Positions 16,701 through 60,289 of a DNA stretch of 64,000 nt are shown piece after piece. Under the pieces are notes generated by a model. It worked only from the letters and a program-made list of their open reading frames with translations, was not told where the DNA came from and ran no database searches. Within the stretch, counting starts at the first letter, position 1; every line of letters starts with the position of its first letter. The position numbers were made by a program, and so were the translations under genes. Origin of the DNA: Shimia sp. (GTDB taxonomy: Bacteria; Pseudomonadota; Alphaproteobacteria; Rhodobacterales; Rhodobacteraceae); the NCBI RefSeq assembly GCF_022448905.1, contig NZ_JAKVCW010000006.1, forward strand, positions 124,001 through 188,000, in the 5' to 3' direction.

Positions 16701-17788
16701 AGCATATGTCCCGACTTCTGCGCTTTGGTCGCCAAATATGCTTGGTTGTGCGCGTTCTCTCCCACCTTCAGCGCCACCCGTTCCGCCACAGCCACACCGG
16801 CGTTTTCCATCATGGCAATCTTGCGGGGGTTGTTGGTCAGCAAGCGCACAGAGGAGAACCCCATCTCCTGCAGGATCTTTGCGCCAATGCGGAAGTCTCG
16901 TTCATCATCCTCAAAGCCCAAACGGTGATTGGCCTCCACCGTGTCAAATCCTTGATCTTGCAGGAAATACGCCCGCATCTTGTTGGCTAGGCCAATGCCG
17001 CGGCCTTCCTGGTTGAGGTATAGTAGTACGCCGTTGCCCTCGGCCCCCATATGCCCAAGGGCTGCATGCAATTGCGGACCGCAATCACATTTCAAACTGC
17101 CCAGCACATCCCCAGTGAAACAGGCTGAATGCAGCCGCGCCAACACCGGCGCATCTCGGTCCGGGCGACCAATCTCAATCGCGTAGTGCTCCGCTCCGCC
17201 GTCTTCTGGCCGAAAAATATGCAACCGCCCGGCCTCGGCTGCCGCCATCGGCAGGCGCGCATGCACCACAGGATGAAGCGGGCTGGTGGCTGCCAAATGT
17301 GGGGCCGCCAAAGCGGACGGGATCACCGTCAACCCATGCTCCAATGCAAAATCGCCTGCTGCGCTCAGTTCCACGGTCAACGCCGCGGGCAACAGCTGCG
17401 CCGACTTCACCAGCTTCACGGCTGCGCGATGCAACGCCGCATCGCCTGTGCGCGCGGTGGCCAGCGGGCCCTTCATCGGTGTCTTCAGATCATCTTCCGG
17501 GCTGACAATGCCCTTGATCCAACGCAGATCTGCCTCCGTAGGCAGCGCCACCCGGGCAATATCGCCGTCATAGGCCCGTGCTTTGAGCGTCTCCGCCCGC
17601 CGCGCGGTCAGCGTCAAATCCGGCGCCGCACCCAGCGCCCGCACAGCCGCCAACCGTTCATCTGTGAGCGTTTCTGCCGCGAGCACCAACAAGGGCGTGC
17701 CTGCACCGGTCAGCACAATCGGCACACCCATGCGCAAATCTGCCCGCGCGCGGGCCAATCGCTCGATAATGTCAGGGGCAAAACTCAT
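16697..17788 (-). CDS. ribA: GTP cyclohydrolase II with long N-terminal extension
   Basis: 363 aa; the catalytic GCHII domain is the C-terminal ~200 residues. It opens the imidazole ring of GTP, releasing formate and pyrophosphate, as the first step of riboflavin synthesis. Zinc ligands are in LHSACFTGDVLGSLKCDCG (Cys...CysxCys) and the catalytic stretch is NQEGRGIGLANKMRAY. The first ~165 residues are not the RibB synthase and have no motif I can name; long RibA forms occur in related alphaproteobacteria. The ATG at 17788 (MSFAPDIIERLARARADL) is chosen over an upstream in-frame Met because that extension looks non-coding. Confidence 0.88.
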   Translation of the reverse strand: MSFAPDIIERLARARADLRMGVPIVLTGAGTPLLVLAAETLTDERLAAVRALGAAPDLTLTARRAETLKARAYDGDIARVALPTEADLRWIKGIVSPEDDLKTPMKGPLATARTGDAALHRAAVKLVKSAQLLPAALTVELSAAGDFALEHGLTVIPSALAAPHLAATSPLHPVVHARLPMAAAEAGRLHIFRPEDGGAEHYAIEIGRPDRDAPVLARLHSACFTGDVLGSLKCDCGPQLHAALGHMGAEGNGVLLYLNQEGRGIGLANKMRAYFLQDQGFDTVEANHRLGFEDDERDFRIGAKILQEMGFSSVRLLTNNPRKIAMMENAGVAVAERVALKVGENAHNQAYLATKAQKSGHML

Positions 17789-17951
17789 GCGAACCTCTGT
17801 CTTCAGCCAATCCCATGTAGCCTCTTCTGCAGCAATATGAAACATTTGGTGGTGCTGAAACACGAGGGCGTGAGCAGATTGCAGCAATTCTTGTTCTGAT
17901 CGTGAAGCCTCCTCACATGGCTACCAAGCAACGCATTACGGAGAGACGCAC

Positions 17952-18638
17952 ATGGCACAGTTGAAAAAGATCCTGCTGGTAGATGACGACGAAGATCTGC
18001 GCGAGGCGCTTTCTGAGCAACTTGTGATGACCGAGGATTTTGACGTGTTTGAAGCCGGCAACGGTGCCGAGGCGATGGGCCGCGTCAAAGAAGGTCTTTA
18101 TGACATCATCATTCTCGATGTGGGTCTGCCGGATACCGATGGCCGTGAGCTCTGCCGTCTGATGCGCAAGCAGGGCGTGAAAAGCCCGATCTTGATGCTG
18201 ACTGGCCATGACAGCGACGCCGACACGATTCTGGGCCTCGATTCGGGTGCCAACGATTACGTGACCAAGCCCTTTAAGTTTCCCGTCCTGCTTGCGCGGA
18301 TTCGTGCGCAGCTGCGTCAGCATGAACAGTCCGAGGACGCGGTGTTCCAGCTTGGGCCATACACGTTTAAGCCCTCTATGAAGCTGCTGATCCGCGAGGA
18401 TGAGAGCAAGGTGCGCCTGACCGAAAAAGAGACAAACATCCTGAAGTTTCTCTATCGCGCCACCGAAGGTGTTGTGGCCCGTGATGTGCTGCTCCACGAG
18501 GTCTGGGGGTACAACGCCGGTGTCACCACCCACACGCTGGAGACTCATATTTACCGCCTGCGCCAGAAGATCGAGCCGGATCCCTCAAACGCGCGGCTTC
18601 TGATCACAGAGTCCGGTGGCTACCGCCTGGTGGCATAA
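17952..18638 (+). CDS. cenR: OmpR-family response regulator, CenR type
   Basis: 228 aa. The receiver domain (residues ~5-120) has the acidic pocket LLVDDDEDL, the phospho-acceptor in IIILDVGLPDTDG, the Thr in ILMLTGHDSD and the Lys in NDYVTKPFKFP. The C-terminal winged helix (~130-228) ends with THTLETHIYRLRQKIEPDPS and LLITESGGYRL. From memory it is nearly identical to CenR of Rhodobacter, an essential regulator of envelope and division genes. No histidine kinase is adjacent, as expected for CenR. GGAGAGACGCAC precedes the start. A hairpin and an FNR box follow. Confidence 0.85.
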   Translation: MAQLKKILLVDDDEDLREALSEQLVMTEDFDVFEAGNGAEAMGRVKEGLYDIIILDVGLPDTDGRELCRLMRKQGVKSPILMLTGHDSDADTILGLDSGANDYVTKPFKFPVLLARIRAQLRQHEQSEDAVFQLGPYTFKPSMKLLIREDESKVRLTEKETNILKFLYRATEGVVARDVLLHEVWGYNAGVTTHTLETHIYRLRQKIEPDPSNARLLITESGGYRLVA

Positions 18639-18650
18639 TCTTGCGCATTT

Positions 18651-18681
18651 CTCCGTGCCGCCCTTTGGAAACGGCGCGGAG
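18651..18681 (+). terminator. Hairpin after cenR
   Basis: CTCCGTGCCG pairs with CGGCGCGGAG over 10 bp (one G-T pair) around an 11-nt loop, starting 12 bases past the cenR stop. No T-tract follows, so it may stabilise the mRNA 3' end or act as a Rho-dependent stop rather than an intrinsic terminator. Confidence 0.45.
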
Positions 18682-18698
18682 ATACTAAATATGTTACG

Positions 18699-18712
18699 TT
18701 GATGTGGATCAA
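18699..18712 (+). promoter_or_regulatory. Perfect FNR/FnrL-type box
   Basis: TTGATGTGGATCAA matches the FNR consensus TTGAT-N4-ATCAA at all ten defined positions. FnrL is the oxygen-sensing activator in Rhodobacterales. If it works as a class II site (centre near -41.5), transcription would start around 18747, inside the intergenic region and well before xth at 18927. A terminator at 18799-18826 lies between, so the box probably does not serve xth. Confidence 0.65.
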
Positions 18713-18744
18713 AGCAATATCTGAGACACATCATTTACAAGTGA

Positions 18745-18826
18745 CCTAAGAGTTCCCGCCCATGTCCGGGTAATGACATGAACCTCCCTGTTGGACTGGC
18801 CCGAGCTCCGGCTCGGGCGCTTTTTT
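18745..18826 (+). ncRNA. Candidate FNR-controlled small RNA
   Basis: No ORF with family support covers this segment, yet it has the order of parts of a trans-acting bacterial small RNA. A 5' stem-loop has CATGTC (18761-18766) paired with GACATG (18775-18780). An unpaired stretch carries CCTCCC (18783-18788), complementary to Shine-Dalgarno sequences. A strong intrinsic terminator ends it. A perfect FNR box sits at the right distance upstream. The 5' end is inferred from class II FNR geometry, so it may be off by several bases. An alternative is a long cenR 3' UTR. Confidence 0.4.
18799..18826 (+). terminator. Strong intrinsic terminator upstream of xth
   Basis: GCCCGAGC pairs perfectly with GCTCGGGC around a TCCG loop, followed by GCTTTTTT. 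It is 160 bp past cenR with no gene directly before it, which is why a small RNA is proposed. Confidence 0.88.
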
Positions 18827-18926
18827 CTCCCCCTTCTCACATTCCCCCAAATGCGCAGGATTTCGCATTGGCACTCTGCCCCCACATGGCTAGGGTCGCG
18901 AGGAGAACAAAACGGGAGCGCGCCAC

Positions 18927-19715
18927 ATGTCTTTCACCCTTGCCACCTGGAACATCAACTCGGTGCGCCTGCGCGAGCCAATTGTGCTCAAGCTCATGCA
19001 AGAGGAGGCGCCGGACGTTCTCTGCCTGCAGGAATGCAAAAGCCCGGTGGACAAAATCCCAACCGAGGCTTTCGCGGAATTGGGCTACACCCACATGGTG
19101 GCGCGTGGCCAAAAGGGCTACAACGGCGTAGCCATTTTCTCCAAGATCCCAATGGTCGAAGCGGGCAGCGAAGACTTTGCCGACCTTGGCCACGCGCGCC
19201 ACATTGCAGGCACGCTGGAAAACGGCGTGACCGTGCACAACTTCTATGTGCCCGCAGGCGGCGACGTGCCGGACCGGGAAAAGAACGAAAAGTTTGGCCA
19301 AAAGCTCGACTACCTCGCGGACATGCGCGACTGGTTCCGCAAGGAACAGCTCAAGAAATCGATCATGGTGGGCGATCTGAACATCGCGCCGCGCGAGGAT
19401 GACGTTTGGGATCACAAGAAACTTCTGAAGGTGGTCAGCCATACGCCCATCGAGGTGGAGAAGCTGGCCGAAACCCAGGACGCTGGCGGCTGGGTCGACA
19501 TCACTCGTCAAGACATTCCTGAGGGCAACCTCTACAGCTGGTGGTCTTACCGCGCCCGCGATTGGGACGCGGCAGACAAAGGCCGTCGTCTCGATCACAT
19601 CTGGGCCACTGATGATATCTCCAACGCGGGCCACTCCAGCCGCGTGCTGCGCGATGCCCGTGGATGGGAAAAGCCGTCCGACCACGCGCCGGTCTTTGCG
19701 ACCTTTGATCTGTAA
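18927..19715 (+). CDS. xth: Exodeoxyribonuclease III
   Basis: 262 aa, the usual size. The enzyme is an AP endonuclease and 3'-5' exonuclease in base-excision repair. The catalytic residues are all visible: N in LATWNINSVR, E in CLQECKSP, D and N in MVGDLNIAPRED, and the final D and H in RRLDHIWAT and KPSDHAPVFATF. The start codon follows GGAGCGCGCCAC. It is a single gene, convergent with the broken membrane-protein gene. Confidence 0.93.
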   Translation: MSFTLATWNINSVRLREPIVLKLMQEEAPDVLCLQECKSPVDKIPTEAFAELGYTHMVARGQKGYNGVAIFSKIPMVEAGSEDFADLGHARHIAGTLENGVTVHNFYVPAGGDVPDREKNEKFGQKLDYLADMRDWFRKEQLKKSIMVGDLNIAPREDDVWDHKKLLKVVSHTPIEVEKLAETQDAGGWVDITRQDIPEGNLYSWWSYRARDWDAADKGRRLDHIWATDDISNAGHSSRVLRDARGWEKPSDHAPVFATFDL

Positions 19716-19721
19716 GACCGC

Positions 19722-20239
19722 TTATCGCGCCCACGCCGCATAATCGGGGTGGGCGTCCTTCATGTCTTGGTAGAGCCAGACCATACGGTCAACAAACCAC
19801 AGCTTGCCGCCAATCATCAGGCTGAGCCCAAATAACGTCATGCCAAGATCAAGCTGCCAGAGCCCCCAGATCCACGGCACCATACCAACGCCGGACACCA
19901 CGCCAAGCGCGATGGCCCATCGCGTATGATGACTGGGGATCGGTACTGTCTTTCGGTTGAGAAATACCCGCTCGCCAAAGGTGCCGTGTGCGGCCCAATT
20001 TTCGGTGGAGCTTGGGGGCGCAAAGGCACGAGGGTTCCACCAGGTCCATAAAACCACCAGCGCCACAGGCAGCAACGCACCCCGCCAAGCCAAACGCGGG
20101 AATAAATCGCCAACGTCATTAGTGGCAAAATCGACATACGCGAGTACACACTCCACGGATTGGCGTGCCGTGCCCAGGCCGCATCGTCCATCGCCATCAT
20201 ACGTTCAGAGAGTGCAAAGATGTCCCATTTTGAGGGCAT
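19722..20239 (-). pseudogene. Frameshifted small membrane protein (DUF6653-like)
   Basis: Translation from the ATG at 20239, which has GAGAGGAG upstream, gives MPSKWDIFALSERMMAMDD and continues to YSRVWLG; it then leaves the coding frame. The expected continuation, ALLPVALVVLWTWWNPRAF and on to DRMVWLYQDMKDAHPDYAAW, lies in another frame from about 20080 to 19722. The break is at a run of four C on the plus strand (20080-20083). The joined product would be about 170 aa with three or four hydrophobic helices. I recall this family as DUF6653, with limited certainty. A real mutation and a base-calling error are both possible. Confidence 0.7.
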
Positions 20240-58988: not shown

Positions 58989-60289
58989 GCACAGAGAAAG
59001 CATGGAGCGCGCGCAAGCCGCTGTGGATTGGCGGCATTGCGCTAGCAACCTTGGTGATTGGCTTTGGGGCCTGGGCCGTGGGCACAGAGATCGCCGGGGC
59101 CATCGTTACCTCCGGCCGGGTTGAGGTGGACCGTAACCGTCAGATCGTGCAGCACATTGATGGCGGCGTGGTCACGGACATCAAGGTGGAGGAAGGTGAC
59201 CGCGTCGAGCCGGGCCAGATCCTGATGCAGCTCGACGAAGCCGAACTTACGCTGGAACTCACCGTGACCGAAGGCCAGCTTTGGGAGCTTATGGCCCGCC
59301 GTGGACGGCTCGAAGCGGAACGCGACGAAGCGCAGGACATTGTCTTTGACCCCGCCTTGGTGGAGATCGCGGAAACCTCGCAAGAGGCCGCTGGCTTGAT
59401 GACAGGTCAAAGCCGCCTGTTTGCCGCCCGCGCCGACACGCTCAACAAAAACCTCGATCAATTGGCCAAGCGCAAGGCGCAAATCCAAAGCCAGATTGTT
59501 GGCATCGACGCCCAAAATGTCGCCCTCACACAGCAGCTTGATCTGATTAAGGCGGAACTCAAAGACCAGCAGGCGCTGCTTGACAAAGGCCTTGCGCAAG
59601 CCACCCGCGTTCTGGCGCTACGCCGCGAAGAGGCCAACCTCGCTGGCCGCGTAGGTGAGTTGCAGGCCAATCGCGCACAGGCTGAAGGGCGCGTCACTGA
59701 AATTGAAATCGAGGCTTTGGCACTCGGCAGTTCGCGCCGCGAAGAGGCGATAACAACGCTGCGGGACCTGCGCTATCGTGAGTTGGAGCTGTCTGAGCGT
59801 CGCCGTCACTTGATTTCGAAAATTGAAAACCTCGACATCCGTGCCCCGGTGGCCGGTCTGGTTTACGGCCTACAGGTGTTCGCCTCCCAATCGGTCATCC
59901 AACCGGCTGAGCCGCTGATGTACATCGTGCCTCAGGACCGCCCGCTGGTCGCGGCAGTACAGGTGCCCACCATTCATGTGGATCAAGTCTATCCGGGCCA
60001 GTCTGTCACCCTTAAATTCTCCGCCTTTGATCAACGCACAACGCCTGATCTGGAGGGCAGCGTGGTGCATGTCTCAGCAGACGCCTTTCAGGATGATCAA
60101 ACCGGTGGGTCCTTTTATAAGGCGGAAATTGAATTGCTAGACGGCGAAGTGGAAAAACTGCCGGCCGAAGCCTCGCTTGTGCCGGGCATGCCTGTGGATG
60201 CGTTTTTCCGCACGCGGGACCGAACCCCTTGGGAGTATCTCACCAAGCCTTTGACCGATTATTTCGTCAGAGCCTTCCGAGAAAGCTGA
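58985..60289 (+). CDS. HlyD-family periplasmic adaptor of type I secretion
   Basis: 434 aa. One N-terminal membrane helix (GGIALATLVIGFGAWAVGTE), a short lipoyl-like half EVDRNRQIVQHIDGGVVTDI, a long coiled coil (~95-270), then the returning beta barrel with IRAPVAGLVYGLQVFASQ and PLMYIVPQDRPLVAAVQVPT. It links the ABC exporter to an outer-membrane TolC channel. Overlap with the ABC gene (ATGA) shows operon membership. Confidence 0.9.
   Translation: MSTEKAWSARKPLWIGGIALATLVIGFGAWAVGTEIAGAIVTSGRVEVDRNRQIVQHIDGGVVTDIKVEEGDRVEPGQILMQLDEAELTLELTVTEGQLWELMARRGRLEAERDEAQDIVFDPALVEIAETSQEAAGLMTGQSRLFAARADTLNKNLDQLAKRKAQIQSQIVGIDAQNVALTQQLDLIKAELKDQQALLDKGLAQATRVLALRREEANLAGRVGELQANRAQAEGRVTEIEIEALALGSSRREEAITTLRDLRYRELELSERRRHLISKIENLDIRAPVAGLVYGLQVFASQSVIQPAEPLMYIVPQDRPLVAAVQVPTIHVDQVYPGQSVTLKFSAFDQRTTPDLEGSVVHVSADAFQDDQTGGSFYKAEIELLDGEVEKLPAEASLVPGMPVDAFFRTRDRTPWEYLTKPLTDYFVRAFRES

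Follow-up and report, generated by a model that had tools for sequence, protein, structure and literature searches.

A conserved FNR-type box suggests a second, low-oxygen source for the 3′ UTR-derived small RNA SorX in Shimia and many of its relatives

What is a perfect FNR-type box doing between cenR and xth, just ahead of what looks like a small RNA (sRNA) gene? We addressed this question in a 64,000-nucleotide stretch of a Shimia sp. genome (contig NZ_JAKVCW010000006.1, positions 124,001–188,000; hereafter the window), for which an earlier note, made from the letters alone, had proposed an oxygen-controlled sRNA driven by the box. All of the elements that it named (box, hairpin, CCTCCC and terminator with T6, between cenR and xth) are found (Table 1); the terminator stem has eight pairs, seven of them G–C. 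The upstream gene encodes a protein with OmpR/PhoB-type response regulator matches in NCBIfam (0 of the 25 matches listed over cut-off), and its homologues in named records have 82–92% identity (best 80 of 591). We name its product CenR, given that RSP_0847 appears as CenR in PMC9275681 and given the synteny with the sRNA described below.

Table 1. Features of the cenR–xth interval and its flanking genes (positions of the window)
Feature	Position	Strand	Basis
cenR homologue (RSP_0847/OmpR-1 type response regulator), 3′ UTR parent gene	17952..18638	+	ORF and profile matches
FNR/FnrL-type box TTGATGTGGATCAA, TTGA-N6-TCAA dyad	18699..18712	+	sequence match; register conserved in relatives
Weak −10-like TTTACAA, spaced roughly as in class II	18734..18740	+	conserved columns in relatives
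Predicted start of FnrL-driven transcript (about ±2 nt)	18747	+	inferred from class II geometry
SorX sRNA (RF02784)	18753..18824	+	cmscan, full model 1–73
SorX 5′ hairpin, CATGTC (18761–18766) and GACATG (18775–18780)	18761..18780	+	sequence and pair-keeping changes
CCTCCC	18783..18788	+	read in sequence
Conserved CCTCCCTGTTGGA, mostly unpaired, presumed mRNA-pairing seed (anti-Shine-Dalgarno)	18783..18795	+	invariant in alignments
Intrinsic terminator, stem-loop 18799–18818, T6 at 18821–18826	18799..18826	+	sequence and folding
xth, exodeoxyribonuclease III; downstream gene, not part of the sRNA	18927..19715	+	TIGR00195 and TIGR00633 above cut-off

The segment certainly belongs to the SorX family. 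RF02784 matched at 18753–18824 over model positions 1–73 with 71.7 bits (gathering score, 46.6) and was the sole family to reach threshold in the window among the 4,227 Rfam families scanned. The earlier note knew of no description for this locus; the match rules out an undescribed sRNA. SorX lies here 3′ of the OmpR-type gene RSP_0847/cenR (18753, after the cenR homologue ending at 18638), and the order cenR then SorX is shared by the Rhodobacter sphaeroides locus L187. Across 14 sequences, compensatory changes on both sides were found in 10 of the 17 predicted SorX pairs, and the 5′ hairpin has such pair-keeping changes in four of its seven pairs. The CCTCCCTGTTGGA segment is invariant in SorX alignments of 14 and of nine rows, which were drawn from loci already carrying the core.

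SorX is cited as a 3′ UTR-derived sRNA that counters oxidative stress. In R. sphaeroides it is described as a 3′ UTR sRNA of RSP_0847 (cenR) matured by RNase E (PMC8625941, PMC9438474), as Hfq-dependent and inhibiting translation of potA (review, PMC9438474), and as an annotated co-transcript of RSP_0847 from an RpoHI/II promoter (PMC3320616); it is also given as the ‘former RSs2461’ (PMC5036791). RSP_0847 is named cenR and reported to be essential (PMC9275681). Within the literature searched, no paper contains the words SorX and CenR together, and the terms sRNA, small RNA and UTR have zero occurrences in the main text of the CenKR paper.

As judged from sequence, the box and the terminator are each weak evidence when taken alone, and their weight comes from comparison. 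Perfect TTGATNNNNATCAA sites number 12 in 4.29 Mb of genome, FNR-type dyads with at most one mismatch number two in the window (1.6 expected), and the region 17500–20200 holds three terminator-like sites (2.9 expected from shuffles). A one-mismatch FNR-type dyad, TTCATGTGGATCAA, is located elsewhere in the window, at 59973–59986.

For the comparison, 110 loci were chosen blind to the box: 80 cenR homologues from named records (best 80 of 591) and the 30 top SorX matches (24 of the genus and six of the family). The SorX core is present in 95 of these loci, with 102 cores in total. When every dyad of 4-base half-sites with spacers of 0–12 was counted upstream of SorX (3,328 dyads), TTGA-N6-TCAA was the commonest, occurring before 40 of the 102 cores and before 24 of 70 once similar upstream sequences had been removed. 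The next three dyads occur before 14, 9 and 7 cores and overlap a TTGA-N6-TCAA box in 14, 8 and 6 of these cases, respectively; the best dyads that do not overlap the box reach four of 102 cores. Among the named cenR loci (best 80 of 591), the SorX core follows within 450 nt in 65 of 80 and the exact box followed by the core is found in 20 of 80, with a one-mismatch box 70–95 nt before the core in six further loci (reversed dyad, 0).

The check in close relatives that the earlier note had suggested gives a mixed outcome: within the genus, 19 of 25 genomes carry the TTGA-N6-TCAA dyad ahead of SorX, whereas its exact form is absent from six (G003, G008, G012, G016, G021 and G024), in which cenR and SorX are still adjacent. 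In a family panel of 394 genomes, drawn evenly and with nearly one per genus, the box followed after 50–80 nt by CTCCCTGTTGGA was found in 67 genomes; the control dyad TTCA-N6-TGAA gave the same pattern in none of the 394, and the box with a shifted gap of 81–111 nt to CTCCCTGTTGGA in two. A small number of these 67 matches are likely to be accidental or unrelated, and a cenR-type C terminus was present just upstream in 28 of the 30 pattern-matching loci examined. The remaining 327 of the 394 family genomes are without the box-to-SorX pattern. Thirty of these were searched, a sample selected for the missing pattern and hence unfit for rates: SorX scored above cut-off in 28, and among the 21 loci with a recognisable cenR end (nine without one upstream were left out) the exact dyad was found in none and a one-mismatch dyad in four. 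On these sequence comparisons, the box is carried by many, though not most, relatives.

The box also keeps a near-constant distance to a promoter-like element. In 28 of 42 non-redundant loci with the box, an A–T element (TTTA, TTAT, TATA, TTAG or TTAA) starts 19–23 nt past it, compared with 0–5 of the 42 in seven other 5-nt windows. This is approximately the −10 position expected for a box at −41.5, where many relatives show CTTTAG, CTTTAA or TTATAT. The distance from box to SorX core is variable (49–107 nt); in L094, about 23 extra nucleotides lie downstream of the −10 and none before it. An element placed as a −10 for a box near −41.5, the arrangement of a class II promoter, is thus seen over the relatives and as a weak match in the window, where a scan with the sigma-70 consensus gave no promoter and the −10 (TTTACAA) is weak. 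Weak −10 elements are frequent in activator-dependent promoters. Adding 41.5 to the box centre (18705.5) gives the predicted start at 18747.

Loci with two SorX-like cores after cenR place the box in a particular way. In six of seven such loci (L062, L069, L078, L097, L112 and L113) it stands between the copies, and in none before the first copy; the seventh, L194, has no box. The second core of L069 has diverged, and L062, L069 and L078 have only a short sequence ahead of the second core, in which no typical 5′ hairpin was recognised by eye. L011 was rejected as a two-core locus, its second core being a false one from a wrong script count. A tandem SorX-like pair elsewhere (L224, G025:C9:60300–61300) has neither an FNR-type box nor a recognised cenR end and was left out of the count. 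Three more SorX-like RNAs occur in the genome of the window, L002 (C29:240518–240603), L003 (on C8) and L004 (on C12), with 52.0, 45.2 and 34.5 bits, respectively; they carry CTCCCTG ahead of the terminator, and TTGA-N6-TCAA is absent within about 130 nt upstream of them (103 nt examined for L004).

Binding of FnrL at SorX is already in print for one species. ChIP-seq in R. sphaeroides detected FnrL at the presumed promoters of RSs0019 and RSs2461, with the regulatory effect on the two not established by its authors (PMC4263372), and RSs2461 is SorX; in the literature searched, as far as the sources were available, we found no follow-up, no assigned class II promoter and no word on conservation of the FnrL site at SorX. 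We examined the genome G099, which is R. sphaeroides 2.4.1 or near-identical to it, given that its SorX match (C4:2598225–2598299) meets the published 5′ end at 2,598,224. Its cenR–SorX locus has a one-mismatch box, TTGCGTGAGATCAA, at 2598148–2598161, where it overlaps the stop codon of cenR; TATAAA lies at 2598184–2598189 and would occupy precisely −12 to −7 with the box centred at −41.5. By arithmetic with even base use, about 0.1 one-mismatch dyads would be expected across the 250 positions scanned. The published 116-nt pre-SorX starts at 2,598,182, that is, 14 nt upstream of the predicted class II start (2,598,196); given this mismatch, we did not take the pre-SorX 5′ end for the FnrL start, and the 116-nt precursor most likely derives from a longer cenR transcript. 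FnrL binding at the sRNA, its processing and its potA target are established by others in R. sphaeroides. A class II FnrL promoter at SorX is well supported by our comparison together with the ChIP-seq of the other group.

The genome of the window encodes FnrL (L126:1003–1776; NF045989, 458.8 bits, cut-off 300); CDSC and CARC occur close to its N terminus, and its recognition helix contains ETVSR. The search for Crp/Fnr proteins used the PF13545 family alone and returned, besides FnrL, one other nearly full-length match above cut-off, an FtrB-like protein (L127) that has ESLSR in the recognition helix, no N-terminal cysteine cluster and no score over any NCBIfam cut-off among the matches listed; of the two proteins scanned, FnrL alone passes an equivalog cut-off. 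One perfect FNR-type box is located about 125 bp upstream of the inferred start of hemA (5-aminolevulinate synthase; L117, ~1501), which is among the genes that FnrL ChIP listed in R. sphaeroides (PMC4263372). Ten proteins encoded near nine of the 12 perfect boxes were scanned, and hemA is the only one that we found in that list; the other neighbours are TldD, MurD, RseP, TsoY-type and alkanesulfonate-monooxygenase-type proteins and four without a match at E 1e-40. We know of none of these other neighbours as an FnrL target.

Could SorX do without the box? If it were solely a processed product of the cenR 3′ UTR, with a box that is there by chance or is non-functional, its biogenesis would match that published in R. 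sphaeroides, and the weak −10 of the window, the lack of the exact box in six of the 25 genus members and that of the exact pattern in most family genomes would all fit. We nevertheless consider this very unlikely, given the conserved register of box and −10 with control dyads near zero, the box between the copies in six of seven two-copy loci and the FnrL peak at RSs2461. The alternative that the earlier note itself had offered, a long cenR 3′ UTR with a chance box, divides along this line: its first half agrees with the published biogenesis in R. sphaeroides, whereas the comparative controls (dyad ranking, control dyad, gap shift and two-copy placement) rule out a chance box.

A real box might instead be read by a different Crp/Fnr protein, either a nitric-oxide regulator of the DNR/NnrR type or the FtrB-like protein, so that the signal would not be oxygen as such. 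DNR-type proteins may read the same dyad as FNR, a second Crp/Fnr-type protein with an ESLSR helix and no N-terminal cysteine cluster is present in the genome, and more could exist, PF13545 being the sole family searched; however, the equivalog cut-off is passed by FnrL alone of the two proteins scanned, and it is FnrL itself that sits at SorX in R. sphaeroides, which makes another reader highly improbable. It is also conceivable that FnrL, once on the box, activates no promoter and acts as a repressor of, or a roadblock to, cenR read-through into SorX. The box does lie inside the cenR 3′ UTR, and that of R. sphaeroides overlaps the cenR stop codon, yet a −10-like element conserved at the class II activation distance and a box positioned to serve the second copy in most two-copy loci leave a roadblock with hardly any probability.

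The conserved register of box and −10, together with the box, TATAAA and FnrL ChIP-seq peak of R. sphaeroides, indicates that SorX most likely has two sources, and we hold it very probable that these are the stress-driven cenR 3′ UTR and an FnrL class II promoter of its own. The first source would be cenR read-through cut by RNase E and inducible by stress, as published in R. sphaeroides and presumed here for the window. For the second, FnrL would occupy 18699–18712 at low oxygen and activate the class II promoter, with RNA polymerase using the weak −10 at about 18734–18740 and starting near 18747. The transcript would end at the T-run (18826) and so measure about 80 nt, leaving the CCTCCCTGTTGGA seed free; such an RNA most likely covers the ribosome-binding sites of target mRNAs, including those of transporters, and represses their translation. 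The RNA family and the box, with its conservation and geometry, are established for the window and its relatives, and the FnrL gene for the genome of the window; activation as opposed to repression, the start site, an anaerobic function and the targets are what we infer. Of the oxygen-controlled sRNA claimed in the earlier note, the sRNA, the class II position of the box and a register kept in many relatives hold up, whereas the novelty does not.

Candidate targets were sought by the seed. The pattern AACAGGGAG-N3..10-ATG occurs at 12 places in the genome, one of which is SorX's own complement; seven precede plausible ORFs, and six of these were run against Pfam. The six candidate genes (L173, L174, L175, L178, L179 and L182) are complementary to the SorX seed at the ribosome-binding site, with no control passed, and encode three solute-binding proteins (SBP_bac_1, DctP and OpuAC) and arginase-family, [2Fe-2S] and 6PGDH-type proteins. 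The same search in R. sphaeroides (gap 3–12) gave six places, none of them PotA-like by eye; it missed the known target potA, and this target prediction therefore bears no weight.

The box before SorX suggests that one RNA is made both under stress and on oxygen depletion. If so, a dual-source RNA would tie the essential regulator CenR to both oxidative stress and the transition to low oxygen, and a low-oxygen promoter would give meaning to an FnrL ChIP-seq peak of unestablished effect. The chances are about even that, in a large part of the Rhodobacteraceae, SorX is a low-oxygen sRNA driven from an FnrL promoter of its own, for which the processed stress 3′ UTR is one of two inputs, and that in some two-copy lineages the inputs have been divided, with the first copy remaining tied to cenR and the second coming under FnrL. 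The two-copy loci would then be a natural experiment on how duplication splits the two inputs of one sRNA.

The SorX of the window and that of R. sphaeroides have in common the RNA family, the site 3′ of cenR/RSP_0847, the hairpin, the seed and the terminator. The latter is described as a stress-induced, processed 3′ UTR sRNA, whereas the former is preceded by a perfect box; R. sphaeroides has a one-mismatch box followed by TATAAA at the distance expected for class II, a reported FnrL ChIP-seq peak and a published 116-nt precursor end that disagrees with the predicted FnrL start. A second match to the SorX model in R. sphaeroides (G099:C4:1632636–1632725, 43.6 bits, below cut-off) coincides with SorY, the published 5′ end of which is 1,632,642, a coincidence that points to a relationship between the two RNAs; SorY differs in having its own promoter, another locus and a score under the SorX gathering score. 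FnrS of Escherichia coli shows no sign of homology to SorX, the only one of 4,227 Rfam families to attain its threshold in the window, and RSs2461 is described as without sequence similarity to FnrS (PMC4263372). The likeness is one of logic: FnrS is an sRNA that FNR controls directly and that targets mRNAs in the absence of oxygen (PMC4263372), and SorX, with FnrL at its own promoter, would work in the same way.
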